From Streptomyces sp. SBT349 (GTDB taxonomy: Bacteria > Actinomycetota > Actinomycetes > Streptomycetales > Streptomycetaceae), in NCBI RefSeq assembly GCF_001083795.1, contig NZ_LAVK01000002.1, positions 1 through 64,000 on the forward strand: a DNA stretch of 64,000 bases. Reading direction: 5' to 3'. Below, piece by piece: positions 4,660 to 42,283 of this stretch (position 1 is the stretch's first letter; each line of letters starts with the position of its first letter). Both the position numbers and the translations under genes were made by a program. Under the pieces are notes generated by a model. It did no database searches. It was not told the DNA's origin and worked only from the letters and a program-made list of their open reading frames with translations.

Positions 4660-5414
4660 GCGCGCCGGTGAGCGGCGGGCCGCTGCGCCTGCTGCTGCCC
4701 GCTCCGGTCGCGGTGGCCGAGACGTTCGGGGACTCCGGGACGCCCACCGGCCTCTTCCCCGAGGAGGAGGCCCACGTCGCCAACGCCGTGGCCAAGCGGC
4801 GCAACGAGTTCACCACCGTCAGGAACTGCGCGCGCGACGCCCTGGCCGAGCTCGGCGGCCCGAGGGCGCCGCTGCTGCCGGGCGAGCGCGGCGCGCCGGG
4901 CTGGCCCCCCGGGTTCGTCGGGAGCATGACGCACTGCCTCGGCTACCGCGGCGCCGCGGTGGCGCGGGCGGGCGACCTGGCGAGCGTGGGGATCGACGCC
5001 GAGCCCAACGAGCCGCTGCCGAGCGAGGGCGTGCGGGACATGGTGACGCTGCCCGCCGAGCGCGCGGCGCTGCCAGGGCTCGCGGCCCGGCGGCCCGGGG
5101 TCTGCTGGGACCGGCTGATCTTCAGCGCCAAGGAGAGCGTCTACAAGACGTGGTTCCCGCTGACGCGCAGGTGGCTGGACTTCGAGGAGGCGGCCCTCGA
5201 CATCGACCCGGAGGCGGGCGTGTTCACCGCCAGGCTGCTGGTGGAGGGCCCCGTGGTCGACGGCGTGCGGCTGCCGGCGTTCTCCGGGCGCTTCGTGGTC
5301 CGCGACGGCCTGGTGGTCACCGCGATCTCCGCGGGCCCGCCGCCCGCGCCCCCCGGGACGCCGCGGCGCCCGGAGGAGGACTCCTCCGGGCGCCGCGAGG
5401 GCGTCACGCCCTAG
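4656..5414 (+). CDS. 4'-phosphopantetheinyl transferase, Sfp/PptT type
   Basis: Transfers phosphopantetheine from CoA to acyl, peptidyl or polyketide carrier proteins. It has 252 residues from a GTG that overlaps the previous stop. Mg/CoA-binding motifs are GIDAE and FSAKESVYK, with the N-terminal KRRNEF...R region and SMTHCLGY typical of actinobacterial Sfp-like enzymes. The last 20 or so residues (PRRPEEDSSGRRE...) are low complexity because a strong hairpin at 5365-5394 lies within the coding end. Coupling to the PptH-like gene suggests the two set the holo/apo balance of carrier proteins. Confidence 0.9.
   Translation: MSAPVSGGPLRLLLPAPVAVAETFGDSGTPTGLFPEEEAHVANAVAKRRNEFTTVRNCARDALAELGGPRAPLLPGERGAPGWPPGFVGSMTHCLGYRGAAVARAGDLASVGIDAEPNEPLPSEGVRDMVTLPAERAALPGLAARRPGVCWDRLIFSAKESVYKTWFPLTRRWLDFEEAALDIDPEAGVFTARLLVEGPVVDGVRLPAFSGRFVVRDGLVVTAISAGPPPAPPGTPRRPEEDSSGRREGVTP
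5365..5394. terminator. Hairpin terminator inside the 3' end of the PPTase gene
   Basis: A perfect 14-bp stem (5365-5378 with 5381-5394) with a 2-base loop. It lies between the convergent PPTase and 5'-nucleotidase genes but inside the last codons of the first. Suitable as a bidirectional terminator. Confidence 0.7.
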
Positions 5415-5456
5415 AACGTTCGGCGGGGACGGTCCGCCACCCGCGCCCCGGACGCC

Positions 5457-7259: not shown

Positions 7260-7361
7260 GAGCGGTTCATCCCTTCGGTCCGCCCGCACCCTATGGGTTA
7301 CGCGCGTAGCCGTCAGGAGGGGCTGTGTAACAAGGAGAAAAACGCTGGGTACCTTCGCGTT

Positions 7362-8276
7362 ATGAGCGATGTCGTGGTGGTGGACCGGGTGACCGAGGAC
7401 GAACAGCGCGAGATCGGCGGCCTGATCGCCGCCGCGGCGGCGGTGGACGGCCGCCACGCGGTGTCCGAGCAGGGCATGCTGCTCCTGCGCGGCGGCGCGC
7501 GGACGGGCGTCGAACACCTGCTGCTGCGGAGCGGGACCGGGCTCGTCGGCTACGCCCAACTCGACGGAACGGACCCGGTGGAGGCGCCCTCGGGCGAGCT
7601 CGTCGTCCACCCGGCCCACCGCGGGCAGCGGTACGGGCGGGCCCTGGGTGAGGCGCTGCTCGCCGAGTCGGGGCACCGGCTGCGGCTGTGGGCGCACGGC
7701 GGCCACCCGGCGGCGCGGCACCTGGCGCGCCAGCTCGGGCTGACGCTCTTCCGTGAACTGCGGCAGCTGCGGCGCCCGTTGGGCGGGCTGAGCCTCCCCG
7801 ACCCCGGGCTGCCGGCGGGCGTGGAGCTCAGGACGTTCGTCCCCGGGCGGGACGAGGAGGCGTGGCTCGCGGTGAACGCGGCGGCCTTCGCGCACCACCC
7901 CGAGCAGGGTGCGCTGACCCGGCGGGACCTGGCCGCGCGTGAGGCCGAACCGTGGTTCGACCCGGCCGGGTTCTTCCTGGCCGTGCGGGCGGCGGGCGAG
8001 CCGGGGGAGGGCGCGATCCTCGGGTTCCACTGGACCAAGACGCACGCCGCCGAGGGTCTGGGCGAGGTGTACGTCGTGGGGGTGGCGCCCGAGGCCCAGG
8101 GCCTGGGCCTCGGGCGGGCGCTGACCACCGTCGGCCTGCGCCACCTGGCCGCCGACCCCGCGCTGGACACGGCGATGCTCTACGTCGACGCCGACAACGC
8201 GCCGGCCGTCCGGGTGTACGAGAGCCTCGGCTTCCGCACGTTCGAGGCGGACCTGATGTACCGGACGGAGAGGTGA
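7362..8276 (+). CDS. mshD: Mycothiol synthase MshD
   Basis: Last step of mycothiol synthesis: acetylates Cys-GlcN-Ins with acetyl-CoA. It has 304 residues with two GNAT domains. The C-terminal, catalytically active one carries EVYVVGVAPEAQGLGLGRAL (acetyl-CoA loop) and ends with MLYVDADNAPAVRVYESLGF. The N-terminal one has VHPAHRGQRYGRAL. No Shine-Dalgarno sequence sits next to the ATG; a -10-like TACCTT lies 7 bases upstream, so the message may be leaderless. mshA is about 4 kb downstream. Confidence 0.92.
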   Translation: MSDVVVVDRVTEDEQREIGGLIAAAAAVDGRHAVSEQGMLLLRGGARTGVEHLLLRSGTGLVGYAQLDGTDPVEAPSGELVVHPAHRGQRYGRALGEALLAESGHRLRLWAHGGHPAARHLARQLGLTLFRELRQLRRPLGGLSLPDPGLPAGVELRTFVPGRDEEAWLAVNAAAFAHHPEQGALTRRDLAAREAEPWFDPAGFFLAVRAAGEPGEGAILGFHWTKTHAAEGLGEVYVVGVAPEAQGLGLGRALTTVGLRHLAADPALDTAMLYVDADNAPAVRVYESLGFRTFEADLMYRTER

Positions 8277-8351
8277 CCCGGGGATGACCCGGACGGGGGA
8301 GCGCTCGCCCCCGGCCGGTGGGCGCGCCGCCCCGCGGGTACTGTCCGTTGC

Positions 8352-8588
8352 ATGAACCACGGCAGGCGCCCCCCGCTGTCCGAGGCCGACCGGCTGCGGC
8401 TCGCCCGTGCCGTCGTGGAGGACGGCTGGTCCGCGCGGCGGGCCGCGGAGCGGTTCGGGGTCTCGCCGGGCACGGTCCGCCGCTGGGCCGGCCGGTACCG
8501 GCGGTACGGCGCCGACGGCATACGGTCCGATGCCCCCGTTCACCTCACTGATGTGCCCCGTTCGTCCGGATGGCGTGAGAATGGAGGC
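8352..8588 (+). other. Open HTH-domain reading frame, in frame with and upstream of ppk
   Basis: From the ATG at 8352 the frame encodes an HTH domain ([16 protein letters not shown], then [20 protein letters not shown]) of the kind found at the N-terminus of IS481-type transposases. It then continues without a stop into ppk. The PHO box at 8538-8570 lies within it, and ppk has its own start, so a true fusion is unlikely. It could be a small HTH gene that lost its stop, a transposase remnant, or a coincidental open frame. Confidence 0.35.
8538..8570 (+). promoter_or_regulatory. PHO box (PhoP operator) in front of ppk
   Basis: Three contiguous 11-base units: GTTCACCTCAC at 8538, a degenerate unit at 8549 and GTTCGTCCGGA at 8560. 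The first and third fit the Streptomyces direct-repeat unit (GTTCACC type). The box ends 18 bases before the ppk ATG. A -10-like GAGAAT at 8577-8582 would give a leaderless or near-leaderless transcript. PhoP control of ppk is established in S. lividans. Confidence 0.75.
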
Positions 8589-10832
8589 ATGAGCCAGGAG
8601 ACGAGCATCCGCCAGGACCGCCCGTACACCGTGCCGCAGCCCGCGGATCCGAGCGCGCGCACCGCGCCCGAGGAGGCCCCCCGGAGCGCCATCGAGCCGG
8701 GCGAGATCGAGGAGACCGAGGAGACCGGGGAAGCCGCCGCGGGCGGGGCCGGGCCGTTCCCCGCCGAGCTGCCGGGCGACCGCTTCCTGGACCGGGAGCG
8801 GAGCTGGCTCGCCTTCAACGAACGGGTCCTCGAACTGGCCGAGGACCCCGAGACGCCGCTGCTCGAACGGGCCAACTTCCTGTCGATCTTCGCGAGCAAC
8901 CTGGACGAGTTCTTCATGGTGCGCGTCGCCGGGCTCAAGCGGCGCATCGCCACCGGCGTGGCGAACCGCTCCGTCACCGGGCAGACCCCCCACGAGGTGC
9001 TGGAGACCATCTGGGCGCGGGCCAGGGAGCAGATGACGCGGCACGCGGCCTGCTACCAGCGGACGGTGGCCCCCCAGCTCGCCGCCGCGGGCATCCACCT
9101 GCTGCGCTGGCCCGACCTGACCGAGCAGGAGCAGACCCGGCTCTTCTCCCTCTTCCGCAAGAAGATCTTCCCGGTCCTGACCCCGCTGGCCGTCGACCCG
9201 GCCCACCCGTTCCCCTACATATCGGGGCTCTCGCTCAACCTGGCCGTCCGCGTGCGGAACCCGGCCAGCGGCAACGAGCACTTCGCCCGCGTCAAGGTGC
9301 CGCCGCTGCTCTCCCGCTTCCTCGAAGCCTCGCCGCAGCGCTATGTGCCGGTCGAGGACGTCATCGCCGCCCACCTGGAAGAGCTCTTCCGCGGCATGGA
9401 GGTCCTGGGCCACTACGTCTTCCGCGTCACCCGGAACGAGGACCTGGAGGTCGAGGAGGACGACGCGGAGAACCTGCTCCAGGCCCTGGAGAAGGAGCTG
9501 CTGCGCCGCCGCTTCGGGCCGCCGGTGCGCCTGGAGGTCGAGGAGTCCATCGACCCGGAGGTGCTCGACCGGCTGGTGCGGGAGCTGAAGACCAGCCGCG
9601 AGGAGGTCTTCGCGCTGCCGGGGCCGCTGGACCTCACCGGGCTGAGCTCCATCGCCGCGCTGGACCGGCCGGACCTGAAGTACCCGAAGTTCGTCGCGGG
9701 CACCCACCGCGACCTGGCCGAGGTGGAGTCCGCCTCCCCGCCCGACATCTTCGCGGCGCTGCGCACCCGCGACGTGCTGCTGCACCACCCGTACGACTCG
9801 TTCTCCACCTCGGTCCAGGCGTTCCTCGAACAGGCCGCGGCCGACCCCGACGTGCTGGCCATCAAGCAGACGCTCTACCGCACCTCCGGCGACTCCCCGA
9901 TCGTGGACGCGCTGATCGACGCCGCCGAGTCGGGCAAGCAGGTGCTCGTGCTGGTGGAGATCAAGGCCCGGTTCGACGAGCACGCGAACATCAAGTGGGC
10001 CAGGAAGCTGGAGGAGTCCGGCTGCCACGTCGTCTACGGCCTGGTCGGGCTGAAGACCCACTGCAAGCTCTCCCTCGTCGTCCGCCAGGAGGGGGAGGAA
10101 CTGCGGCGCTACGCGCACGTCGGCACCGGGAACTACCACCCGAAGACGGCCAGGCGCTACGAGGACCTGGGCCTTCTGACCGCGGACAACGAGGTGGGCG
10201 CGGACCTGTCCGACCTGTTCAACCGGCTCTCCGGGTACTCGCGCCGGGACAGCTACCGCCGCCTGCTGGTGGCGCCGCGCTCGCTGCGCGACGGGCTGGT
10301 GGCCCGGATCCGCCGGGAGGTCGAGCACCACCAGGAGGGCCGCCCCGCCTGGGTGCGGATCAAGGCCAACTCCATCGTGGACGAGCGGGTGATCGACGCC
10401 CTCTACCGCGCCTCGCGCGCCGGCGTGCCCGTGGACATCTGGGCGCGCGGGATCTGCGCCCTGCGCCCGGGGGTGCCGGGGCTCTCCGAGAACATCCGGG
10501 TCCGCAGCGTCCTGGGGCGTTTCCTGGAGCACTCCCGTGTCTACGCCTTCGCCAACGGCGGGGAGGGCGAGGTGTGGCTCGGCTCCGCCGACCTCATGCA
10601 CCGCAACCTCGACCGCCGCATCGAGGTGCTGGTGCGCGTCACCGACCCCGGGCACCGCTCCTCGCTCAACCGGCTGCTGGCCACCGGCACCGCCGACTCC
10701 ACCGAGTCCTGGCACCTCGGCTCCGACGGCCGCTGGACCCGCCACGCGCGCGACGCCGAGGGCGGGCGCCTGCGCAACCTGCAGGAGGCGCTGATCGACG
10801 CCCGCAGGAAGCGCCGTGGCCCCGGGGCCTGA
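8589..10832 (+). CDS. ppk: Polyphosphate kinase 1
   Basis: Makes polyphosphate reversibly from ATP. It has 747 residues. An acidic N-terminal tail of about 60 residues precedes the N domain ([19 protein letters not shown]) and head domain, then two PLD-like catalytic domains. The autophosphorylated His is H491 in GLKTHCKL and the second active-site His is H510 in AHVGTGNY. The start is ATG 8589 because of the PHO box just upstream and the family-typical MSQ start. The Nudix gene starts within its last codons, as in the mycobacterial ppk-mutT1 pair. PhoP control is expected. Confidence 0.95.
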
Positions 10833-16744: not shown

Positions 16745-17503
16745 ATGGCCGACGCACCGAACAAGCTCATTCTGCTTCGCCACGGCGAAAGCGAGTGGAA
16801 CGCGAAGAATCTCTTCACCGGCTGGGTGGACGTCAACCTGACCGACAAGGGTGAGAAGGAGGCGGTCCGCGGCGGCGAGCTGCTGAAGGACGCCGGCCTG
16901 CTCCCCGATGTGCTGCACACCTCCACGCTCAAGCGCGCCATCCGCACCGCGAACCTCGCGCTCGACGCCGCCGACCGCGCCTGGGTCCCGGTGCGCCGCA
17001 CCTGGCGGCTGAACGAGCGGCACTACGGCGCGCTCCAGGGCAAGGACAAGGCCGCCACGCTCGCCGAGTTCGGCGAGGAGCAGTTCATGAAGTGGCGCCG
17101 TTCCTACGACATCCCGCCGCCGGAGCTCGCGGACGGCGCCGCGTGGTCGCAGAGCGACGACCCGCGCTACGCGGCCATCCCCAGCGAGGTCCGCCCGCGC
17201 ACCGAGTGCCTGAAGGACGTCGTGGTCCGGATGCTGCCGTACTGGTACGACGGCATCGTCCCCGACCTGAACGCGGGCCGCACCGTGCTGATCACCGCCC
17301 ACGGCAACAGCCTGCGCGCGCTGGTCAAGCACCTGGACGGCGTCTCGGACGCCGACATCGTGGGCCTCAACATCCCCACCGGCATCCCGCTGCTCTACGA
17401 GCTCGACACCGACTACCGGCCGGTCGTCCCCGGCGGCACCTACCTCGACCCCGAGGCCGCCGAGGCCGCGATCGAAGCCGTGAAGAACCAGGGCAAGAAG
17501 TAG
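16745..17503 (+). CDS. gpmA: 2,3-bisphosphoglycerate-dependent phosphoglycerate mutase
   Basis: Glycolytic/gluconeogenic enzyme interconverting 3- and 2-phosphoglycerate. It has 252 residues. The catalytic His is in [10 protein letters not shown]; other motifs are [19 protein letters not shown] and the second His in [11 protein letters not shown]. The last codons (QGKK and stop) form the attachment core of an integrative element whose DNA starts here. The reading frame is restored, but the stop is TAG where the displaced chromosomal end carries TAA. A -10-like TAGTCT just upstream suggests a very short leader. Confidence 0.96.
17488..17502 (+). repeat. attL core within gpmA
   Basis: CCAGGGCAAGAAGTA, identical to 24855-24869. 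It covers the codons for the C-terminal GlnGlyLysLys and the first two stop bases of gpmA. Integration here keeps gpmA intact, which explains the choice of target. Confidence 0.9.
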
Positions 17504-17517
17504 GCGACCAGACAGAA

Positions 17518-17558
17518 AGTGCCCTCTACCTGCGGCTTTCCCGCCAGTAGAGGGCACT
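17518..17558. terminator. Inverted repeat between gpmA and the integrase gene
   Basis: A perfect 12-bp stem (17518-17529 with 17547-17558) around a 17-base loop, between two convergent genes. It should act as a terminator for gpmA and int. It is carried by the element, just inside attL, so it could also serve in att-site architecture. Confidence 0.6.
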
Positions 17559-17561
17559 CCC

Positions 17562-17586
17562 GGCACCCGGGGCCGTCTGTGGGCCG
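17562..17586 (+). repeat. Arm-type repeat near attL
   Basis: A 25-base stretch reading GGCACCCGGGG then CCGTCTGTGGGCCG recurs with two differences at 24722-24745 near the other end of the element. Paired copies just inside both att sites are what integrase arm-type binding sites look like (inference). Confidence 0.5.
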
Positions 17587-18825
17587 TCAGTGCTCGCGCA
17601 AAACCTCCCCGAAGACCTTCGCCACGGCCTTTCGAGTGCGTTCCTGGCTGCTTGGCATGAGGTGCGCGTACACGCGGAGCGTCAACCCGGGGTCGGAGTG
17701 CCCCAGGTACTCGGCCACGGCCTTGATGCTCTCACCGGCATCGAGCAGGACCGAGGCGTAGAAGTGCCTGAGCGCATGCATGCCGTGCTCGCGAGCGGCG
17801 GCGTACTCCTCGCCCTTCTCCGGGTGAGGGATGATGCCAGCCGCGGCCAGAGCGGGCTTCCAGCTCCGCGTGTTGAACTCGCCTCGCCAGACCTGTCCCC
17901 CCGACGGCCGGGTCACGATGAGCCGCTTGGTCACCAGCGGCCCGCCAGTCGTCTTCCATGGCAGGGTCACCTCAACGGGCGGGAACGCCTTCATGTGCGC
18001 CCTCAGTGCGTCCGCGACGGGCCCCGGAAGCGGGACCTCGCGGAGCTTCCCACCCTTGGGCGGCGCAAACACCGGCTTACTGCGGCTGAGCTTGAGCTGT
18101 CGCACCACGTGCAGCGTGCCAGCGTCGAGGTCCACGGCATCCTCAGCCAGGCCCAGAATCTCCCCCTGCCGTAGCCCGCAGCCACCCCCCACGTCCACGG
18201 TGACGCGGTACCGCTCGGGAAGGGCCGCCCGCACGGCGAGGAGGCGCTCAGGCAGCCAGGGGACCACGCGTCTGGCATCGACGGTCGGCGGTCGGACCGA
18301 TCGGGCGGCGCACGGGTTGCGGGGCAGGTAGCCATCGTCCACGGCCGCACTCAGGCAGCCCCGGACGTTGGAGTAGATGACCCGGGCGTACGAGCCGACC
18401 ACCCCGCCGGCCGCGAGCTGACTCAGCCAGTCCCGGACGTGCTCCGGCTGGAAGGACCCGAGGGGGCGCGTCCCGATGTACGGGAAGGCGTGCAACCGCA
18501 TCTGCGACTCCATAGACGCCCGCGTGTTCGGGTCCCCGCCCTGCGTGGCTAGCCACTTCTCGGCGTATTGCTGGAAGGTGGTCCGGGCGTGCTTGGGGTC
18601 GATGTACTGGCCGCGTTCCATGTCGGCGCGGGTGTGGATGAGCCACTGTTCCGCGGCACGGCGCTGCCGGTCGGGGAAGCTCTTGGACTTCTCGGTGCCG
18701 TCAGGGCCGGTGTACCGGGCGCGGTAGCGCAGGCCGGTGCCGTGTCGGTCGGTCTTGACGCGGACGGTCTTGCCGTCCGGGCCGGTGGTCTCTTTGAACC
18801 AGCGGTCTTGGATGTGCCCTGCCAT
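17587..18825 (-). CDS. Tyrosine recombinase (phage/ICE integrase)
   Basis: Site-specific integrase of 412 residues. An N-terminal arm-binding region with positively charged beta strands (RVKTDRHGTGLRYRARYTGPD) is followed by a SAM-like core-binding domain (TFQQYAEKWLA...). The catalytic domain has the Arg of GGGCGLRQGEILGLA, the HxxR box HALRHFYAS and the terminal LGHSDPGLTLRVYAHL with the nucleophile Tyr. The start is ATG 18825; the frame is open for 32 codons further upstream but looks non-coding there. It lies against attL. Two palindromes at 18963-18996 are in its promoter region. Confidence 0.93.
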   Translation of the reverse strand: MAGHIQDRWFKETTGPDGKTVRVKTDRHGTGLRYRARYTGPDGTEKSKSFPDRQRRAAEQWLIHTRADMERGQYIDPKHARTTFQQYAEKWLATQGGDPNTRASMESQMRLHAFPYIGTRPLGSFQPEHVRDWLSQLAAGGVVGSYARVIYSNVRGCLSAAVDDGYLPRNPCAARSVRPPTVDARRVVPWLPERLLAVRAALPERYRVTVDVGGGCGLRQGEILGLAEDAVDLDAGTLHVVRQLKLSRSKPVFAPPKGGKLREVPLPGPVADALRAHMKAFPPVEVTLPWKTTGGPLVTKRLIVTRPSGGQVWRGEFNTRSWKPALAAAGIIPHPEKGEEYAAAREHGMHALRHFYASVLLDAGESIKAVAEYLGHSDPGLTLRVYAHLMPSSQERTRKAVAKVFGEVLREH

Positions 18826-18962
18826 GGAGGGTGTGCTCCCTGCGGGTAGCAGTTGCGGCGGGTGCCGGAACGGCCCGTGGTGGGCCGTTCTGGCGGTGCC
18901 GGTGGCGGGGGTGCTATGCACTATCGCGCTGATCAGGTGCGTTGCGGGGCGCTAGCGGGGGT

Positions 18963-18996
18963 GCTACCGGTAGCAGGGGTGGCCGCTACCGGTAGC
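18963..18996. promoter_or_regulatory. Two identical 12-bp palindromes upstream of int
   Basis: GCTACCGGTAGC occurs at 18963-18974 and again at 18985-18996, 22 bases apart (two helical turns) on the same DNA face. They lie between the AAA ATPase gene and int. Likely a repressor or recombination-factor binding site. Confidence 0.6.
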
Positions 18997-19013
18997 ACCC
19001 TGGCGGGGGTAGG

Positions 19014-20351
19014 TCAGGGGGCGTCCTGGGTGCATCCGGGGTGGGTGGTCTGGCCCGGTTCGACGGCGGTCATGGGTCCGCCGCACGCGGTGCAGCGCCC
19101 CGGGCCGGTGGTTACGTTGGGTGATGCCGGTCGGTCCAGTCGGCTCACCGATTCCTCAGTCAGCTCAGTCGGCTCAGGGCTCTGGGAGGTGAGCTGACTG
19201 AGCTGACTGTGAGCTGACTGCGCCGAATCGGGGTGAATCCACAGGCTGCCGCCCCCGAAGCCCTTACGCTCCGTGTGCACGACCCTGGCCTTGGTCTTGG
19301 CTCTCTTGATGGTCGCCTCGGAGAAGCTGAGGGCCTTGGCCGCCTTCATCACCTCGCCCCGGGGCGCCTCGCCCCCGTGGTCGGTGAGGTAGCCGAGAAG
19401 CCAGTCAACGGCCTCAGCGCGCTCCCCGGCTTCCTCCGGGTCGGCGGTGGCGGTGAGGGTGTCCTCGACGCTGCGGGTGGTGATGCCGGTGAAGGCCAGG
19501 CGGCCGACGTTGGCGGTGCCGCCTGCGGCGGGCACGTCGTGTCCCTCGATGCGGTAGGACAGCGAGGGCAGGTCGAGTTTGCCCAGGCTGTTCTTGGTCT
19601 GGGTCATGACCTGTTCGCCGGTTTCGCGGTCGTGGGCGAAGGCGAGGATGGCGCGTGCGAGGTCTTTGAAGGCGCCTGATCCTGAGATGAGCTGGGAGGC
19701 GTCGGTTCCGGTGGTCTTGTTGAAGTGGGCGATGCCCAGGGTGAGGGCGGTGGTGCGTTCGGCCATGCGCACCACGGGTTCCAGGGCGCGGCGTACGTCC
19801 TGGGTGCGGTGGGCGTCGGTGTGCTGCCCGAGGGTGGACATGAGGGGGTCGATGATGAGCGCGGCTACGTGGTGTTCCGCCACGGCGTGTTCGAGGGGGC
19901 CGGTGTCCAGGGGCAGGGAGAGCATGGTCTCGCCGCGGAGCACGTCATCGACGTCGACGCGGTAGACGCGTTCGAGGTCGGCCCCTGCGGCGATGAGGCG
20001 GGGTACGAGGGTGCGGGACCATGAGTCTTCGACGGCCGCGTAGAAGACGGTGCGGGGCTGGTGGTGGAAGGTGCCGGGGAGCTGCCCGCGTGAGAGGCGG
20101 GCGGCCAGCCAGATGCCGAAGCTGGACTTGCCGGTGCCTTCCCGCCCGGCGGCGAGGGTCAGGGCGCCGGCGGGGATGCGCCCGGCCCCGGGCTCGGGCT
20201 CCCAGGCCCAGATCACCGGTTCGGGATCGATGGAGCTTGCGGGGGTGAGCTTGATCCGGCGGGCGGGGAAGTCGGGGGCGTCACCGACCGCCGGGTCGTG
20301 GGCCCACGTGCCGCGTGTGTCGTCGGGCGGGATCGGGTGGTGGGGCATCAC
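19014..20351 (-). CDS. AAA/RepA-like hexameric ATPase of the element
   Basis: ATPase of 445 residues of the RepA/DnaB-RecA fold (AAA_25 type). It has a Walker A in AAGREGTGKSSFG and a Walker B in AALIIDPLMSTLG; downstream SGSGAFKDLARAIL and QTKNSLGK fit the family. The C-terminus adds a winged-helix-like region (SFSEATIKRAKTKA), a Ser/Gln-rich linker and a small zinc-ribbon (CTACGG...HPGC). A role as replication helicase for the excised circle is likely. The start is GTG 20351 or ATG 20348; both overlap the stop of the gene before it. Confidence 0.8.
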   Translation of the reverse strand: MMPHHPIPPDDTRGTWAHDPAVGDAPDFPARRIKLTPASSIDPEPVIWAWEPEPGAGRIPAGALTLAAGREGTGKSSFGIWLAARLSRGQLPGTFHHQPRTVFYAAVEDSWSRTLVPRLIAAGADLERVYRVDVDDVLRGETMLSLPLDTGPLEHAVAEHHVAALIIDPLMSTLGQHTDAHRTQDVRRALEPVVRMAERTTALTLGIAHFNKTTGTDASQLISGSGAFKDLARAILAFAHDRETGEQVMTQTKNSLGKLDLPSLSYRIEGHDVPAAGGTANVGRLAFTGITTRSVEDTLTATADPEEAGERAEAVDWLLGYLTDHGGEAPRGEVMKAAKALSFSEATIKRAKTKARVVHTERKGFGGGSLWIHPDSAQSAHSQLSQLTSQSPEPTELTEESVSRLDRPASPNVTTGPGRCTACGGPMTAVEPGQTTHPGCTQDAP

Positions 20352-20785
20352 GCGGCCTCCTTGCCGCTGGTGCGGGTGGCGATCCAGGCGGCCACAGCCG
20401 CCGGGTCGTAGCGCAGGTGCTTGCCGATGCGGAAGGCGGGCGGGCCGGTGCCGTTCTTGCGCCAGGCGTAGACGGTCTGCACGCTCTCCAGCTGGAAGAG
20501 GGCGACGAGGTCTTCGGGGGTGAGGTACCGATCGGGCAGAGCGCCCCGCAGCGTGTGCAGCGGCGCGGGGCTGTCCGGATCGGCCGATCGCCTGCCCGAT
20601 CCCGGGGCCGATCGGATCGGCCGACCATCGGCCGATCCGTGTCCCGATCCCTGGCGCGTGCCGGTCGGCCGACGATCGGGGGGCGGGGCGCCGATCCGGT
20701 CGGCCGATCCGGCAGCCCGGTTTTCGTCCCGGTTTTCGTTCCGGTTTTCGTTCCGCGCGATGGGTGTTGCGTCCAGCCGTGTCAT
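20348..20785 (-). CDS. HTH protein (excisionase/AlpA-type) with low-complexity N-terminus
   Basis: Protein of 145 residues. The C-terminal 60 form an HTH_17/AlpA-type domain (YLTPEDLVALFQLESVQTVY, FRIGKHLRYDPAAVAAWI), typical of excisionases or small DNA-binding partners. The N-terminal half is low complexity: three copies of (N/D)ENR, then a Ser/Gly/Arg/Pro region encoded by DNA dense in GGCCGATC-type motifs. It overlaps the next gene by TGATG, and its own ATG overlaps the HNH stop by one base. It may bind the repeats within its own gene (speculative). Confidence 0.7.
   Translation of the reverse strand: MTRLDATPIARNENRNENRDENRAAGSADRIGAPPPDRRPTGTRQGSGHGSADGRPIRSAPGSGRRSADPDSPAPLHTLRGALPDRYLTPEDLVALFQLESVQTVYAWRKNGTGPPAFRIGKHLRYDPAAVAAWIATRTSGKEAA
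20581..20710. repeat. Cluster of GGCCGAT(C/-) motifs, iteron-like
   Basis: Within 130 bp the motif GGCCGATC or a one-base variant occurs about seven times (near 20582, 20606, 20619, 20630, 20667, 20692, 20702), several as CGATCGG palindromes. It lies inside the low-complexity half of the HTH gene. The density suggests a protein-binding iteron array, perhaps an origin, rather than chance. Confidence 0.5.
20719..20754. repeat. 12-bp tandem repeat, three copies
   Basis: Three consecutive copies of CGGTTTTCGT(C/T)C, encoding Asn/Asp-Glu-Asn-Arg repeats at the N-terminus of the HTH protein. Period 12 keeps the frame. It is AT-richer than its surroundings. Confidence 0.8.
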
Positions 20786-21183
20786 CACGCGGCCACCTCC
20801 CACATGCCGCGCCAGGTGGCGCGGTCGGCCGTCTGCCGGATGTGGGCGAGGCGGGCGAGCAGCTGCACCATCCCCGTGTCGGCCTCGGCCGGGTCGGCCA
20901 CCCGGGTGGGGTGGCCGACCGTGGCGAGCAGCGTCAGGGCGAGGAGCAGGGGCAGGCGGTCGGCCTTGGCCTGGTTGCAGCTGTGGCAGGCCAGGACCAG
21001 GTTCGCGGCGGCCCACGTGCGCAGGAGGGAGAGAGGCGCTACGTGGTCCAGCGTGGCCTGGCGCAGGTCGGTGAAGGGGATGCGGCAGTAGGTGCAGCGT
21101 GCGCCGTCCCTCGCGGCCACCGCCTGCTTGCGGGCACGCTTCCTCGGGCCGTTCAGCTGCTTCCTGGGGTCCTGGGTGCTCAC
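20785..21183 (-). CDS. HNH endonuclease
   Basis: Small HNH nuclease of 132 residues. The zinc Cys pairs are CTYC and CHSC; the HNH core is DHVAPLS...NLVLACHSCNQAK. The C-terminal helix region is Leu/Ala-rich. The GTG start overlaps the excisionase stop by four bases and the stop shares a base with the next ATG, so it is fully embedded in the operon. Possible roles are nicking at an origin or att site, homing, or attack on competing DNA; nothing in the sequence decides between them. Confidence 0.8.
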   Translation of the reverse strand: MSTQDPRKQLNGPRKRARKQAVAARDGARCTYCRIPFTDLRQATLDHVAPLSLLRTWAAANLVLACHSCNQAKADRLPLLLALTLLATVGHPTRVADPAEADTGMVQLLARLAHIRQTADRATWRGMWEVAA

Positions 21184-21404
21184 AGCGGCACCTCCAGCTC
21201 ACTGGCGGGGATGCCCCGGGCGTCGAGGTAGGCGCGGAACGCCGCGCGGGGGATACGGATGGTGCCGCGTCCGGTGCCGACCCGGTAGGCGTACAGGCGG
21301 CCCGCCTGGATCTCCCGGTAGATGACGGAGGAGTCCTTGCCCAGCGCACGGGCGATGTCCTTGACGCGCAGCGCACGCAACTCCTGTTCGACGGCGGTCA
21401 TCAC
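21180..21404 (-). CDS. Excisionase-type HTH protein
   Basis: Small basic protein of 73-74 residues with an HTH_17/MerR-like fold (LRVKDIARALGKDSSVIYRE, IQAGRLYAYRVG, TIRIPRAAFRAYLDARG). Such proteins act as recombination directionality factors beside tyrosine integrases. The start is ATG 21401 (sharing TGATG with the sigma-gene stop) or GTG three bases upstream. It sits four genes away from int. Confidence 0.75.
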   Translation of the reverse strand: MMTAVEQELRALRVKDIARALGKDSSVIYREIQAGRLYAYRVGTGRGTIRIPRAAFRAYLDARGIPASELEVPL

Positions 21405-22015
21405 GCGGCCTTCTTCAGGGAGGTCTTGCGGACGGTGGTGGGCAGCGTCGTGTAGTGGGGCGTGGGGCGGCGCTCAAGGTGCCTGCGGACGGCGCGGAGG
21501 GCGCGGGTGAGGGCCTGCCGCACGCACGGGACGGGCACCTGAAGGCGCAGGGCGATCTCCCGGGTCGTCATCTCGCGGAAGAGGTGCAGGGTCAGCGCGT
21601 CGCGTTCCAGAAGCGGCAGCGTCTTCAGCGCGCGGCGCACGTCCACCACCGCCGGGACCACCGCGTCGGGCGCGTCCGGGGCCAGCCCGAACGCCGTGCG
21701 GCTCTCGGTGCGGAACTCCTCGGTGGCCAACTCCCGCTGGTTGCGGGCCCGCGACAGGTGGGCGCCAATCGTCCACCTCGCCTGGAGGGCCAGGAAACCG
21801 TGCAGCCGGTCGTCGTCCGCCGGGTCGGCCTTGCGCAGCGAGGTCCCCAGCGCGAGGAACGTCTCACTGGCCAAGTCCTCGGCCAGCGCCCGGTTCGGCA
21901 CCCGCCGCTGGATGTACCGCAGCACGAACGGGTGGTACTGCTCGAAGACCCGCCCCCACCGCTCCCGATCCACCAGCAACTCAGTCGACCGCTCAACCAC
22001 AACCTCAGGCATCAT
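21401..22015 (-). CDS. ECF-type sigma-70 family factor heading the element operon
   Basis: Protein of 204 residues with region 2 (FEQYHPFVLRYIQRRV, ALAEDLASETFLAL, WTIGAHLSRARNQ) and region 4 (LPLLERDALTLHLFREMTTR, IALRLQVPVPCVRQALTRAL). No anti-sigma factor is adjacent. The ATG at 22015 follows AGAGGGG at good spacing. As first gene of a fully overlapping five-gene operon it probably controls element transcription. It could instead be a degenerate sigma fold acting as an ordinary activator. Confidence 0.75.
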   Translation of the reverse strand: MMPEVVVERSTELLVDRERWGRVFEQYHPFVLRYIQRRVPNRALAEDLASETFLALGTSLRKADPADDDRLHGFLALQARWTIGAHLSRARNQRELATEEFRTESRTAFGLAPDAPDAVVPAVVDVRRALKTLPLLERDALTLHLFREMTTREIALRLQVPVPCVRQALTRALRAVRRHLERRPTPHYTTLPTTVRKTSLKKAA

Positions 22016-22118
22016 GGAACTACCCCTCTCGAAGGGCCCTAGGGCGCGGTGATCAGCTGGCAGGCAGCACCGCGCCCTTTGTCATGGGTCGAAGTCCCCT
22101 AGAGAACCTAAGTTCAGG

Positions 22119-22178
22119 TCCTCATTAGGACTTGCTGGGAGAGACACTAGACCTAGGGTGGGCGATTCCTCAATAGGA
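22119..22178. promoter_or_regulatory. Paired operators in the divergent sigma/GntR gap
   Basis: TCCTCATTAGGA (22119-22130) and TCCTCAATAGGA (22167-22178) are near-identical short palindromes 48 bases apart. Outside them sit TTCAGGTCCT on the left and AGGACCTGAA on the right in opposite orientation. They lie in the 242-bp gap between the divergent sigma and GntR genes. Probable binding sites for the GntR regulator, controlling both directions. Confidence 0.6.
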
Positions 22179-22257
22179 CCTGAAGAGAAAAGTTATTGAT
22201 CTTCTGTGGACTCGGTCGCGCCCAAGCGGCATCCTGTGGGGCAGTAGGAGGACCAAC

Positions 22258-23040
22258 GTGACTGAGGCAATCGCCGGGCAGGCGAAGTACCACCGCGTAG
22301 CCAATGCGCTGCGCCGAGAGATCCAACAGGGGAAGTTCGACCCGAGCGGGCGCCTGCCTGCGGAGACAGACATCGCCAAGCGTTTCGCCGTGAGCCCCCC
22401 CACAGTGAGGCAGGGTCTCGCGGTCCTGCGGGCTGAAGGGCTCATCGACTCACAGCAAGGCCGAGGGACGTTCGTCAGGAAGGGGCGACCGCACCAACGC
22501 CGATCACGGCACCGCTACGGTCGTGCACGGGGGGATCAGCAGCTACTCACGCCCGACCTGCGTCACGAAATCGACTTCGCAGGGAGGGCGCCTGTCCCAG
22601 CTCACATCGCTGAGGTCATGGACGTGCCCACGGGCACTGAGGTGGTCGTGAGGCGGCGCCACTTGTTCGACAAGGAGACCGGGCGACCGGAAGAGGTGGG
22701 CGCAAGCTACATCCCGGTAGAGATCGCCGGTGGCACCTTCATGGAGGAACCCTCGGTGGTCCCAAAGGCGCTCTTCCTGTGCGTGGAAGATGCCGCCGGT
22801 CAGCGCTACGCCACGGCAAAGGACCTGTGGCGATGCAGGATGCCGACACCGGATGAAGCCGCCGCGCTCCAACTGTCCACAGGCGCGCCCGTCATGAACG
22901 TCGTCCACACTGCGCGTGGCGAAGACGGCAGAGTCTTGGAGGTCTCGGAATCGACATGGCCAGCCGACCGGGTCGTGATCGTGGATGAGTACGAGGTGGA
23001 GCCGCATGCCGCCGAACCTGACTCCCCATCGGAGATCTGA
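22258..23040 (+). CDS. GntR/HutC-family regulator with UTRA domain
   Basis: Regulator of 260 residues. The N-terminal GntR winged helix (YHRVANALRREIQQGKFDPS, LPAETDIAKRFAVSPPTVRQ, GLIDSQQGRGTFV) is followed by a basic linker and a UTRA effector domain (PVPAHIAEVMDVPTGTEVVV, WRCRMPTPDEAAALQ). AGGAGG lies 5 bases before the GTG start. It is divergent from the sigma-headed operon and probably represses it, as KorSA does in pSAM2-type elements (inference). The stop overlaps the next ATG (TGATG), so the downstream phosphoesterase is co-translated. Confidence 0.85.
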   Translation: MTEAIAGQAKYHRVANALRREIQQGKFDPSGRLPAETDIAKRFAVSPPTVRQGLAVLRAEGLIDSQQGRGTFVRKGRPHQRRSRHRYGRARGDQQLLTPDLRHEIDFAGRAPVPAHIAEVMDVPTGTEVVVRRRHLFDKETGRPEEVGASYIPVEIAGGTFMEEPSVVPKALFLCVEDAAGQRYATAKDLWRCRMPTPDEAAALQLSTGAPVMNVVHTARGEDGRVLEVSESTWPADRVVIVDEYEVEPHAAEPDSPSEI

Positions 23041-23705
23041 TGAGCTTTGCTGATCTCCCGCCGGGGCACCACGCCTCCGCCCTGCGTGACCACTGGTGGT
23101 GGCGCCCCGGTTGGCACGTGGGGCAGCGCGCCTACACCTGGCACCTGACTTTCGAGGGGCAGAACGGATTGCATCGCCTGGTTAGCGGCTACCAGCGGCG
23201 GCTCAGCACGTTCGTTGGGCTGGACCCGATCCCGCCGACGTGGCTACACCTGACCATGCAGGGCGTTGGATTCACGGAAGAGGTCGATCCGGCTGAAGTA
23301 GGTCGCATCTCGAAGGCAGTCCGCCGACGCCTGGCGGACTTGCCGACGCTGGCACTCGGCTTCAAGTGGGTCACTGTCGCCGATGAAGCCCTCGTGCTTC
23401 CTCCAGTCGAGGAGGAAGCCGTGCGAGCTGTACGTGGCGCCGTCCGGAGAGGGATCGGCGACGTGTGGGGGATGGACAGGATTCCGGAGAACGCTGACCG
23501 GTACCGGCCGCACGTGAGCGTGGCCTACAGCAATCGCGACCAGGAAGCGGCTCCTCTCGTTGCTGCGGTAGCGAGGATGGAACCAGAACCGGCCCTGGTG
23601 ACCGTGCCTGCGGCGTCGTTGATCGTGATCCATCGTGATCATCGGGTCTATGAGTGGGAGATGGTGGAACAAGTCCCCATCGGGGCACGCCAAGTCTCCG
23701 AGTAG
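23040..23705 (+). CDS. 2H phosphoesterase (2'-5' RNA ligase-like)
   Basis: Protein of 221 residues with the two H-x-T/S motifs of the 2H superfamily: HLT in PTWLHLTMQGVGF and HVS in YRPHVSVAYSN. The N-terminus is Trp-rich (HWWWRPGWHVGQRAYTWHL). 2H enzymes cleave or form 2'-5' or cyclic phosphodiesters in RNA and nucleotides; phage Acb1 of this superfamily destroys CBASS cyclic-nucleotide signals. Being on a mobile element and coupled to a GntR regulator, it may be a cargo gene counteracting host defence, or an RNA-repair enzyme. No substrate can be read from the sequence. Confidence 0.75.
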   Translation: MSFADLPPGHHASALRDHWWWRPGWHVGQRAYTWHLTFEGQNGLHRLVSGYQRRLSTFVGLDPIPPTWLHLTMQGVGFTEEVDPAEVGRISKAVRRRLADLPTLALGFKWVTVADEALVLPPVEEEAVRAVRGAVRRGIGDVWGMDRIPENADRYRPHVSVAYSNRDQEAAPLVAAVARMEPEPALVTVPAASLIVIHRDHRVYEWEMVEQVPIGARQVSE

Positions 23706-23852
23706 GGCATTAACTCACAGTGACCCCCCTGGGTGGCCTAGCAACTAGCGCGGGGGTGTCAAACCCCGGATTCCGGCGGATCAGGGGGTTTCCGCAGGTG
23801 AAGCGCTAGGGGCTAGATCAAAGATCAGGCGGCAGATTGGGCGCTAGGAGGG

Positions 23853-23890
23853 CTGCTAGACCTAGCGGTGAGGAGTGCTAGGTCTAGCAG
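23853..23890. repeat. 14-bp perfect inverted repeat
   Basis: CTGCTAGACCTAGC at 23853-23866 pairs exactly with 23877-23890 across a 10-base loop. Immediately next to it, CAGCCGTTAACGGCTG (23888-23903) is a perfect 16-bp palindrome. Together they make a strong structured or protein-binding site about 150 bases after the 2H gene. Confidence 0.85.
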
Positions 23891-23930
23891 CCGTTAACGG
23901 CTGAGAGTTCATGCACAGAGAGTGATATGG

Positions 23931-24072
23931 GCGCCTGCGGCGCACGGCCTTTGGCAGGGCCGCGAGCGGCCCGCCGGGTGCTGAGGCGTCCGGCATCGGT
24001 GGTCGGCCGTGTGCGGGCCCGCTGTGCGTGAAGAGCAGCTACGTGGGGAGGGGGGCGGGTGGCCTCTTCGGG
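23931..24072. repeat. Left arm of a 142-bp inverted repeat
   Basis: Reverse complement of 24426-24567 apart from two one-base length differences in C or G runs. The spacer is 353 bp. No open frame spans either arm convincingly. Confidence 0.9.
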
Positions 24073-24094
24073 GCTCTGGCAGCGAGGTGGAGGA

Positions 24095-24157
24095 CTTACC
24101 GACCCCCTTACCGACTGGGGGTTTCCGCAGGTCAGGGGACTTACCGACCTTACCGAC
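24095..24157 (+). repeat. Four CTTACCGAC direct repeats
   Basis: CTTACCGAC starts at 24095, 24107, 24140 and 24149, all in the same orientation. They lie between the arms of the large inverted repeat. Iteron-like spacing suggests an initiator or partition-protein binding site. Confidence 0.65.
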
Positions 24158-24188
24158 CGGGCCCCCGCCCTTCCGCTGGTAGCCGTCA

Positions 24189-24227
24189 GTAACCAAGGTT
24201 GACAACTCAACGCGTATGCGTGGTTAC
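24189..24227. promoter_or_regulatory. Nested dyad with TTGACA
   Basis: GTAACCA (24189-24195) and TGGTTAC (24221-24227) form a 7-bp inverted repeat enclosing GTTGACAACTCAAC (24198-24211), itself a dyad. The inner dyad includes a consensus -35 TTGACA. A repressed promoter reading rightward is plausible, but no -10 is convincing. Confidence 0.45.
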
Positions 24228-24425
24228 GAAACGCCAATGCCTGGTCGCTCGGCTATTTCTGCGGATTTGCCGAGTCTTTCTGCGGTGACCCCGGGGGGTG
24301 CATCATCGCAGGTCAGCGGTTTACGCGTATATTGCGGTTTGTGCGGCGAGTTCCGGGAGCCGTCCCCCTCGTACACCACGCTCCGTCACCGGCGCCGGAA
24401 GACCCTGACAGCTGCACAGGGCAGA

Positions 24426-24567
24426 CCCGAAGAGGCCACCCGCCCCCTCCCCACGTAGCTGCTCTTCACGCACAGCGGGCCCGCACACGGCCGACCACCG
24501 ATGCCGGACGCCTCAGCACCCGGCGGGCCGCTCGCGGCCCTGCCAAAGGCCGTGCGCCGCAGGGCGC
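24426..24567. repeat. Right arm of the 142-bp inverted repeat
   Basis: Reverse complement of 23931-24072 with two one-base indels. As RNA or single-stranded DNA the two arms would form a very long hairpin. Confidence 0.9.
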
Positions 24568-24702
24568 TCCTTCTAGCTCTAGCTTGATAGCGGCCCGCGC
24601 CGCACCCCCCAGGCCGCCTCAAGCCCGTTCCAGGGACCCCGCACGTCGGCCCACTATCGGCTAACAGGCTGGCCAGAGGTGGTTTCGGTTGCTAGCACAG
24701 CC

Positions 24703-24720
24703 GCTAACGCTAGCGTTAGC
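24703..24720. repeat. 18-bp perfect palindrome near attR
   Basis: GCTAACGCTAGCGTTAGC reads identically on both strands. It is about 135 bases inside attR, beside the arm-type repeat. Possibly an excisionase or replication-protein site. Confidence 0.7.
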
Positions 24721-24721
24721 A

Positions 24722-24745
24722 GGCACCCGGGCCGCCTGTGGGCCG
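24722..24745 (+). repeat. Arm-type repeat near attR
   Basis: Near-identical copy of 17562-17586 (one base shorter, one substitution), about 110 bases inside attR. Possible integrase or excisionase arm site. Confidence 0.5.
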
Positions 24746-24854
24746 CGCGAGGCTGACCAGCGACGACCAACAACAACCACCAAGGCCCCCGACAACCCGC
24801 CGCCGCGTTGGCCAGTGCAGCGTTCCCGCTGGTGGCTGAGGCCGCCTACCAGAC

Positions 24855-24869
24855 CCAGGGCAAGAAGTA
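24855..24869 (+). repeat. attR core
   Basis: CCAGGGCAAGAAGTA, identical to 17488-17502. Bases to its right (TAA completion, then chromosomal DNA before the kinase gene) are the displaced chromosomal continuation of gpmA. Bases to its left belong to the element. Confidence 0.9.
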
Positions 24870-24912
24870 AATACCCGGCGGCGGGCGCGGCACGGGTCGT
24901 AGGCTCGTCGGC

Positions 24913-26289
24913 ATGACCGACACGGGGGCTCGCGAGATCTGGGAGCAGCGCTGGCTGCTGCCCGGCGAGCTCAGGGAGGGGCTCGGGGAGGAGCTGGCCC
25001 GCCGCCCGCCCGGCGGCCCGGCCACCTCCCCGGCGCCCGAGGGGTCCCCCGCGCCGGAGGCCGCGCCCGCGCGCGGCCCCGAGCCCGCGCCCGCACGCGG
25101 GCGGGCGCACCGCCGCACCGGCCGGGACTGGACCGTCGACGTCCTGCTCTTCCTGTGGGCCGCCGGGATGTGGCTCCTGATGGTCGCGACCCTGCCCGAC
25201 CGGGACTACCTTCCCGCCTGGATGACGGCGATCGACGCGCCCCTCGGCGCGCTCGGCTGCCTCGCCCTCTGGTGGCGCCGCCGCTTCCCGCTGCTGCTGG
25301 CCGTCGCGCTGGTCCCGGTCGGCGCCCTGACCTCCGCGGTCTTCGGCGCCCTCACCGTCGTCATCCTCAACCTGGGCCTGCGCACCTCCTGGCGCACCGG
25401 CGCCGCGGTGCTCGCCGCCCACGTCACCGCCGCCCTGCCCTACATGCTGCTCTACGGCGTCCCGCACGAGGGCGGCTGGGCCTCGGTCGCGTTCGTCGTC
25501 GCCCACTACCTGTTCTTCTTCTCCTGGGGCGCGGGTCTCCGGCTGCGCCGCCAGCTGGTGATCCGGCTGCGCGAGGACGCCCGGCGCGAGCGCGCCGAGC
25601 ACGCGCGGCGGCTCGCCGACGCCCGCAGGACCGAGCGGGAGGCCATCGCGCGCGAGATGCACGACGTGCTCGCGCACCGCATGTCCCTGCTCTCCGTCCA
25701 CGCCGGCGCGCTCGCGTACCGCACGCGCGCCTCGGCGCCCGCGACCCCGCTGTCGGCCTCCGAGATCAGCGACAGCGCCCAGCTCATCAGGGACACCGCG
25801 CACCAGGCGCTGGAGGAGCTGCGGGACGTGCTGACCGTGCTGCGCGGCACCGGGGCGACGGACGGCGGGCCGCAGCCGGAGATCTCGGACATCGGGCGCC
25901 TGGTGGCGGACGCCACCGGCGCGGGCCAGCGCGTGACCCTGAGCACCGGCTACGACGAGGCGGCCGTGGAGGGCCTGCGCGGACAGGTGCGGCGCACCGC
26001 CTACCGGGTGGTCCAGGAGGGCCTGACCAACGCCCGCAAGCACGCCCCGGGCCGCCCCGTCACCGTGAGCGTCACCGGCGCCCCCGGCCACGGGCTGACC
26101 GTGGCCGTGCGCAACGAGCTGGCCCCGGGCGTGGTCCCCGGCGGCGCCGGGGAGATACCGGGCGCCGGGGCGGGCCTGGCCGGTCTGGAGGAACGCGCCG
26201 CGCTCGACGGCGGATCCCTGAGCCACGGCGTCACCGGCACCGCGTTCCACCTGGTCGCCGAACTGCCCTGGGGCCCCGCCGAGCCGTGA
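24913..26289 (+). CDS. Orphan NarL-type sensor histidine kinase
   Basis: Kinase of 458 residues. A Pro/Ala-rich cytoplasmic N-terminus (about 1-70) precedes four or five membrane helices (about 75-200), a short coiled stretch, HisKA_3 with H250 in REMHDVLAHRMSLL and HATPase_c (VVQEGLTNARKHAPG, GAGLAGLEERAALDGG). Such kinases normally sit beside a LuxR-type response regulator, but none is here: attR is 44 bases upstream and mtpA/phoU follow. It is the chromosomal gene displaced from gpmA by the element. ATG 24913 has no clear Shine-Dalgarno. Confidence 0.88.
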   Translation: MTDTGAREIWEQRWLLPGELREGLGEELARRPPGGPATSPAPEGSPAPEAAPARGPEPAPARGRAHRRTGRDWTVDVLLFLWAAGMWLLMVATLPDRDYLPAWMTAIDAPLGALGCLALWWRRRFPLLLAVALVPVGALTSAVFGALTVVILNLGLRTSWRTGAAVLAAHVTAALPYMLLYGVPHEGGWASVAFVVAHYLFFFSWGAGLRLRRQLVIRLREDARRERAEHARRLADARRTEREAIAREMHDVLAHRMSLLSVHAGALAYRTRASAPATPLSASEISDSAQLIRDTAHQALEELRDVLTVLRGTGATDGGPQPEISDIGRLVADATGAGQRVTLSTGYDEAAVEGLRGQVRRTAYRVVQEGLTNARKHAPGRPVTVSVTGAPGHGLTVAVRNELAPGVVPGGAGEIPGAGAGLAGLEERAALDGGSLSHGVTGTAFHLVAELPWGPAEP

Positions 26290-26322
26290 GGCGGGACGGG
26301 ACCCCGGGCGTGCGCGGGCGTG

Positions 26323-41947: not shown

Positions 41948-42206
41948 GTCTCTTTGTCTCCTTCTACCGGCAGGAACGTGCCGGACGATCCGAGTAGGAA
42001 GGTGTGACGGCCATGTAAATGGACGCTGAGTGAACCTAACTCGAAACGGGTGGGAAAGTCAGTAGCCGGTGCGCAAAAATAGTCATCGCATGATCAACGG
42101 TCCTGGCGTGCGGGCGACGGGGACGGCCTCGCGCACGGGCCGACCGGCTGTTCGCGTCCGTGTAGGCTGGATCAGCCGTTGCCGCCGGTCATGGCCGTGC
42201 GAGCGT

Positions 42207-42283
42207 GCCGCCTTAGCTCAGTTGGCCAGAGCAGCTGTCTTGTAAACAGCAGGTCGTCGGTTCGAATCCGACAGGCGGCTCCA
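42207..42283 (+). tRNA. tRNA-Thr (anticodon TGT)
   Basis: Full cloverleaf. The acceptor stem GCCGCCT pairs with AGGCGGC, the D-loop is TAGCTCAGTTGGCCAGAGCA, the anticodon loop CTTGTAA has TGT and the T-loop is TTCGAATC. Discriminator T at 42280 and encoded CCA at 42281-42283. Confidence 0.95.

Follow-up and report, generated by a model that had tools for sequence, protein, structure and literature searches.

In the available parts of their descriptions, the plasmid RSF1010 has iterons as well as a helicase, and its AEP primase recognises the stem-loops ssiA and ssiB (PMC4234260, PMC4538821, PMC6925257), while in pRN1 a stem-loop located behind prim-pol is required (PMC4234260). With regard to integrative elements, the accessible portion of one study raises the question of whether elements can use the TraB of another (PMC9513070), that of a second regards Frankia elements without tra or rep genes as either remnants or mobilizable (PMC3218068), and that of a third describes the 8-bp TRS (PMC4170104). 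A pair of hairpins like the one reported below, or satellites of the kind proposed here, appeared in no title or abstract opening found in literature that mostly excluded subscription journals. The locus belongs to a small integrated element and brings such a hairpin pair together with modules resembling those found behind traB genes.

A small integrated element behind gpm

The window, i.e. the whole stretch of DNA analysed here, covers bases 1-64,000 of the 69,250-base contig C222, which belongs to a draft genome of 8.06 Mb in 691 contigs. It holds an element of 7.38 kb that is marked by a 15-nt direct repeat, with the attL core CCAGGGCAAGAAGTA at 17488-17502 (plus strand) in the 3' end of the phosphoglycerate mutase gene gpm (16745-17503, named by NCBIfam) and the attR core at 24855-24869 (plus strand). 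These repeats place the long inverted repeat 0.3 kb inside the right end, in agreement with the earlier suggestion that it lies near the end of a small element. In 20 relatives, chosen for the closeness of both matches, gpm and the region around 26321, which we take to be the phoU region, are at most about 3 kb apart. The 3' end of gpm resembles an insertion hot spot (window 17503-26321), where relatives hold differing stretches or little at all.

On the minus strand the element encodes a tyrosine integrase (17587-18921, Pfam Phage_integrase), a Rep/helicase-like AAA_25 ATPase (19014-20351, Pfam AAA_25), an HTH_17 protein of the Xis/AlpA-like type (20348-20563, Pfam and tblastn) and a sigma-70-like protein (21401-22015, Pfam and NCBIfam); on the plus strand follow a GntR/UTRA regulator (22258-23040, Pfam) and a 2'-5' RNA ligase superfamily protein (23040-23705, Pfam). 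A gene for an HNH protein is also present. A stretch of 17 nt at 24729-24745 (plus strand), 94% identical to 17570-17586, is a probable Int arm-type site, and a similar repeat of 22 nt is found near both ends of L133, which is related to the window element by its integrase, GntR and ligase proteins (64, 64 and 59% identity). L133 and the window element are the two for which borders were defined. L133 bears a TraB of the FtsK type, and no long inverted repeat, module A (see below) or hairpin motif was found in it.

The window element thus has the integrase and att repeats of an actinomycete integrative and conjugative element (AICE), and no FtsK/SpoIIIE-type TraB, Prim-Pol or DUF3631 was found in it; its candidate replication initiator is the AAA_25 protein, and the absence of a detected Prim-Pol sets it apart from an IncQ-type origin, for which a primase in the same element would be expected. 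With an integrase of its own and no detected transfer gene, it may be a mobilizable element served by the TraB of a helper. Owing to the AAA_25 protein, it may need no helper for some functions.

A long inverted repeat around a spacer of short words

Sequence comparison bears out the preliminary description of two 142-base arms, at 23931-24072 (plus strand) and 24426-24567 (minus strand), that are reverse complements of each other apart from two one-base indels in homopolymers, one in a C run and one in a G run. Their identical core spans 121 nt (23934-24054 / 24443-24563) and is followed by a mismatch at the inner edge. In 17 of 20 block-shuffled windows, 16-nt words recur as exact inverted copies no more than 1.5 kb apart, so that short dyads are to be expected by chance, and the identity over 121 nt exceeds chance by arithmetic alone. 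The window holds one further long inverted repeat, a 97-nt inverted copy at the first base of the contig.

No further match to the segment exists in its own genome, and exact 24- or 22-base words from the arms are absent from the genome_contigs and viral_contigs collections, whose scope possibly leaves out this genome. Pieces of the arms of about 30-68 nt weakly match several genomes of the genus (E 1e-4 to 9e-4), and window 23700-24950 has no relative in the plasmid and phage collections at E 1e-5. The reported absence of a clear gene holds as well, as two ORFs spanning the segment have no Pfam or NCBIfam match, the second having been included in one of the two domain scans. An 80-aa ORF of the spacer is matched in one of 295 genus genomes, namely its own, and has no relative elsewhere in that sample; its reading as a protein was dropped.

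Within the spacer, the four direct repeats CTTACCGAC lie where the preliminary description had them, at 24095, 24107, 24140 and 24149, with no other site in the window, and form an iteron-type module around CGCAGGTCAGGGG (24095-24158, plus strand). The word is rare in the genus, with pairs no more than 30 bp apart in three of 295 genomes, but its four occurrences do not exceed what shuffling of the spacer can yield, the top word CTTACCGA having a count of four against five in the best of 100 shuffles. In two other genomes the spaced pair of CTTACCGAC sits at unrelated places, and the search for kindred sites by this word was dropped. A degenerate module at 24237-24350 (plus strand) resembles one between rep and xis in L221 (88% over 33 nt, 24316-24348). 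The 'iterons' of the preliminary description make up one among several modules with differing words. The nested dyad GTAACCA/TGGTTAC (24189-24195 / 24221-24227), with TTGACA at 24199-24204 inside it, is likewise present. As a stand-alone marker, a TCGCAGGTCAGGGG core was rejected, since the surrounding repeated word was missing at eight of the 14 loci seen and several of them resemble terminators or tRNA flanks.

A pair of inward-facing hairpin motifs

The arms coincide with two hairpin motifs of 49 nt, most of one copy lying in each arm. These motifs face inward on opposite strands and follow the pattern GAAGG-A-hairpin-ACGA-CCTTT. Both members start outside their arms. The plus copy (23916-23961) scores 28.7 bits with the motif model R1, and the minus copy (24536-24583), of which 24540-24583 is 87% identical to L220, scores 56.6 bits, having itself belonged to the seed of the model. 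This seed consisted of ten copies, most of them from a scan that demanded a hairpin; they were aligned with MAFFT and given a structure by hand, with an outer stem GAAGG/CCTTC, hairpin 1 and an A/ACGA internal loop. Standard pairs fill 89% of the pair cells in the ten-copy alignment, and the covariation score (0.258 against 0.150 after shuffling) was reached by two of 500 shuffles, while two of five covariation measures are ordinary (39 and 129 of 500). Among eight copies internal to prim-pol, columns 18 and 31 hold A-U four times, G-C three times and U-A once; here the score was reached by one of 500 shuffles, and two other measures are again ordinary (357 and 372 of 500). All these values lean towards pairing, because the scan behind most of the seeds demanded a hairpin and later copies were found by a structure model.

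At E ≤ 0.01 the model matches at least 94 of 295 genus genomes, with E-values that are rough and some matches near 0.01 that may be due to chance. The orientation of paired matches is consistent. At E ≤ 0.1 and within 1.6 kb they face inward in all 18 loci, including L145 with three plus copies followed by one minus copy; at E ≤ 0.5 this holds for 20 of 21 loci, the outward one being L272, and in the genus-wide search for ten of ten among the matches listed. Beyond the motif, the two copies of a locus are more alike than in all 200 shuffles for five of the 11 prim-pol-free loci (those of the window, L220, L266, L271 and L281) and for two of eight with prim-pol, in a test run on loci other than L145. 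DNA folding energies are ordinary in six stretches (z from -1.9 to 0.7), and the best DNA fold of the plus copy lacks hairpin 1. Two conserved stem-loops on opposite strands beside iterons, as in IncQ plasmids, are hence indicated by the motif model, whereas folding energies alone do not support them.

No Rfam family reached its gathering threshold in the segment, either in a search of the whole window or in e-value mode on 23700-24900; e-value mode on L233, L236, L237, L239 and L244 also gave nothing at the cut-off. Sub-threshold matches were mostly to animal microRNA models, and the segment's reading as a known RNA was abandoned. Elsewhere in the window, an Rfam msiK RNA was matched at 41952-42009 on the minus strand, near a tRNA-Thr (42207-42283).

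Near-identity of the two arms

The high similarity of the arms could be younger than the motif pair itself. As the arms are identical, the inner score of the plus copy is inherited from this identity, and the flank outside the left arm is more informative. These 15 nt (23916-23930), placed in the register set by R1, score 6.7 bits when compared with the 5' parts of 14 further copies (a set that leaves aside, among others, three of the L145 copies, both L266 and L279, and one copy each from L269 and L270), a value reached by 0.04% of 14,736 element 15-mers, so the plus copy seems to continue past the left arm. The 3' halves of both window copies resemble one subtype (log-odds -4.4), while in the 5' part the minus copy leans to the other subtype (2.8) and the plus copy falls into neither (0.4), for which reason a direction of conversion is only weakly indicated. 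Taken from sequence patterns, these observations moderately favour gene conversion between two older, diverged copies as the source of the 142-bp near-identity.

Related pairs and their prim-pol setting

A homologous pair is found in L220, from another species, which shares the right end of the element (24727-24867 alignable at 64%). Its inverted pair at 6437-6501 / 7182-7121 is 74% identical over 65 nt, and both members match ends of the window's arms, one match crossing the junction between the right arm and its outer flank. Inward-facing copies also occur in L028/L228 and in L145. In six prim-pol loci (L274-L278 and L282) one copy falls within the prim-pol match and its partner follows directly after the match, preceding rep in the five of six in which DUF3631 was found, and this placement is repeated at weaker scores in L140 and L215. 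Copy A is also protein-coding, which counts against a role in an origin.

A further 18 loci have no intact prim-pol (the window element, L220, L228, L145, L263-L273 and L279-L281), 12 with a pair and six (L264, L265, L267, L272, L273 and L280) without an accepted one at E ≤ 0.1 within 1.6 kb; L268, L273 and L280 are short owing to contig ends. Twenty loci were hand-picked from the genus search with R1, several for a visible pair. In the 12 paired loci the motifs bracket other DNA, with remnants of Prim-Pol between them in L266 and L279. Repeated 8-mers rise above all 100 shuffles in seven of these 12 spacers and in none of seven prim-pol spacers. The words are AGCGTCCG/GCGGACGC in L220, L228, L263, L270 and L279, GCGTCACC in L145 and ACCCAGTA in L269; in L266, L268, L271 and L281 no word rises above all 100 shuffles. 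In L145, from a single-contig genome, 14 CGCAGGTCA/GA words, each amid a repeated 7-mer, were seen between 4900 and 11700, mostly within 5000-8400, a count made without a control and with copies in repeat arms counted twice. The same locus has inverted repeats of 425 and 218 nt (96%) around module A.

No TraB was found in the 18 loci without intact prim-pol, whether paired or not, and in a PF01580 search of 20 genomes the nearest match on the same contig was at least 49 kb from such loci among the matches listed, beyond which weak FtsK matches may lie. Of ten prim-pol loci, among them L140, L142, L143 and L215, which were found by way of module A or plasmid matches, five have TraB in the stretch covered, or seven after further reading in G189 and G125; for the six picked by motif the count is one, or three after 10-13 kb more. 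This contrast is to be read with most loci lacking prim-pol covered over a shorter stretch than the extended prim-pol loci. Beside xis in four TraB-less elements lies a protein of about 550 aa (L228 8539-10200, L270 1871-3499, L263 12654-14318, L220 1874-3535), with no Pfam match in the four and none above the NCBIfam cut-off in three. One of the four was compared with the PDB and had no match there. The protein is possibly a new replication protein.

Modules resembling transfer sites

Just outside the left arm lies module A (23781-23895, plus strand), a putative clt with the dyad GGCTGCTAGACCTAGC-10 nt-GCTAGGTCTAGCAGCC at 23851-23892. It is matched in 26 of the best 29 genus loci other than its own, and in 23 of these 26 a traB reading frame ends no more than 46 bp away; L140, L142 and L143, members of the TraB profile, share loci with L012, L008 and L005. 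In the three exceptions no TraB was found over the stretch covered (L027/G165, 26 kb; L028/G268, 20 kb; L032/G023, 17 kb). L231, also from G023, has an integrase of the same type and module A, with no TraB match and no detectable hairpin pair. This combination counts against reading the pair as an origin. From the position of module A, and more weakly of module C, in other loci, the transfer site of the window element can be placed putatively.

Module C (24628-24715, plus strand), with GCTAAC/GCTAGCG words, is a possible second module of the clt type. It is 75% identical to a stretch 37 bp behind the 3' end of another TraB family at one locus, L225 (= L030), and weakly matches a stretch behind TraB in L221. 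At the other end of the element, the dyad B module (18887-19010, plus strand; GGGTGCTACCGGTAGC-10 nt-GCTACCGGTAGCACCC at 18959-19000) shows about 73% identity to the region around module A in both L140 and L141. Dyad B and the AGTCAGCTCA-type repeats (19130-19226), which lie in the 3' coding end of the AAA_25 gene, resemble further recognition modules with other words. L145 contains modules of the CCGCTAC type similar to the ones that separate rep from xis in L142, L215 and L275. Beside module A in L228 a stretch is 78% identical to pWTY27 9797-9911 and matches 11 plasmid records, in six of which the matched stretch carries a traB annotation. For pWTY27, the available part of its description places the tested clt at 9803-9977 (PMC3583192).

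Possible role of the hairpin pair

The architecture itself can be read directly from the DNA, and from it we infer a function. Tentatively, and with confidence a little short of even, we read the two arms as the halves of a composite origin of replication, belonging to an integrative element for which neither TraB nor Prim-Pol was detected. The roles named earlier were an origin of replication, a transfer origin and a structured RNA. Of these, a replication origin with start sites on single strands is favoured because the motifs lie in and beside prim-pol in six loci, and the part of the suggestion that concerned transfer is taken up by clt-type modules outside the arms. After excision, a Rep protein would bind the repeated modules and a helicase would then open the DNA, upon which an archaeo-eukaryotic-type primase, the Prim-Pol of a helper, would prime at the hairpin on each strand in the manner of RepB' at ssiA and ssiB of RSF1010; finally, the helper's TraB could move the circle by way of module A or C. 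A helper element with CTTACCGAC words was not found, which counts against the proposed origin. The genome itself holds two elements of the DUF3631 type, L275 (on C94) and L284 (on C281), one of them with Prim-Pol and CCGCTACA repeats. These could act as helpers, and no TraB was found on either stretch.

Possible, if rather doubtful, is the existence of a whole class of such satellites of AICEs or plasmids in Streptomyces-type genomes, lacking TraB and Prim-Pol and each carrying the recognition sites of several helpers. Their cassette would combine clt modules from different TraB families and iterons for different Rep proteins with a pair of inward-facing start hairpins for Prim-Pol. The hairpins would be the last remains of a prim-pol locus, made nearly identical in the window, and any of several helpers could replicate and transfer the element.

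Against a composite origin, the hairpins may act in transcripts, for example by tuning the expression of prim-pol and rep. The six prim-pol loci, with one copy inside the gene and the other behind it, ahead of rep wherever rep was matched, would suit such a role, and the hairpin covaries, but it was partly selected by structure and two measures are ordinary in each set. Since the two copies occupy opposite strands, loci without intact prim-pol retain the pair and no Rfam family matches the segment at cut-off, we regard a structured RNA as unlikely. The composite origin likewise seems preferable to a partition or protein-binding site, or a part of a transfer locus, without a priming role. Clt-type modules do lie on both sides (module C being known from one locus), and RepA of pWTY27 binds a long inverted repeat according to the accessible part of its description (PMC3583192), yet the pair is associated with prim-pol rather than with traB, and in six of 11 loci its copies are not alike beyond shuffles, unlike those of recombination sites, all of which makes this explanation improbable.

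Two further explanations would deprive the repeat of a role. The arms could stem from an inverted duplication that arose here recently, or from the insertion of a small transposon-like unit bounded by long terminal repeats, which would account for the 121 identical nucleotides and for the 3-nt repeat GCG that flanks this core. This explanation is very unlikely, as the genome has no other copy and the arms sit on a motif pair that is found at the same place in L220. A transposon or MITE was rejected for want of a second copy in the genome. Alternatively, the second arm could be a false inverted copy made by contig extension or joining, and such copies do occur at contig ends in this assembly. 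Bases 1-97 of the window are an exact inverted copy of 432-528, which is probably false because its source lies inside a long reading frame, presumably that of an HtrA-like protease. In a survey of 59 stretches (712,165 bases; 58 other contigs covered in part or in full, plus the end of C222), contig-end copies were found in C5 (29 nt), C100 (45 nt), C110 (46 nt, overlapping) and C250 (64 nt), and C400 and C600 are palindromic over most of their length. The window's repeat, however, is internal, and apart from the palindromic contigs the survey found no internal exact inverted repeat longer than 40 nt. As gpm adjoins the 26321 region in the chosen relatives, the plus motif extends past the left arm and, above all, another species carries a homologous pair, the assembly duplicate that the preliminary description had envisaged as a refutation has little probability.

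Comparison with known systems

The proposed origin is closest to the oriV of RSF1010/IncQ plasmids, which in the available sources has iterons, two stem-loop start sites, a primase of the AEP class and a helicase. The sequence differs, the primase would come from a helper, and the hairpins of the relatives lie in or behind prim-pol; the function of the present pair is predicted. Origins of the pRN1 type likewise have a hairpin just behind the prim-pol gene (PMC4234260), although pRN1, as far as its accessible description goes, has a single stem-loop of 100 nt and no iterons, in contrast to the two inverted copies of the present loci. With a primase supplied by a helper, the hairpin pair would fit the logic of both systems, so far as these partial accounts permit, and it points to an origin structure for AICEs of the Prim-Pol type.

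With AICEs (pSAM2 and pMEA300 types) and the defective, TraB-bearing DAICEs the window element has integrase, Xis-like, GntR and Rep-like genes in common (PMC3218068, PMC9513070, in the parts available), but no TraB or Prim-Pol was found in it, whereas the DAICEs described there keep traB. In the accessible text on pWTY27, a clt with four TGACACC repeats lies behind a tra gene and an iteron is accompanied by a long inverted repeat (PMC3583192). That plasmid is autonomous, and the relative of its clt is found in L228 and is absent from the window. The module named here lies directly behind traB in 23 genus loci and is also carried by elements without a TraB match, so that mobilisation in trans could be tested by one mating. 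Integrative mobilizable elements and islands of the SGI1 type similarly use the transfer machinery of another element (PMC5704250, PMC7433901, in the portions seen). Instead of a relaxase and oriT, the window element would use double-stranded transfer of the TraB type with clt sites, and it carries several putative recognition modules side by side.
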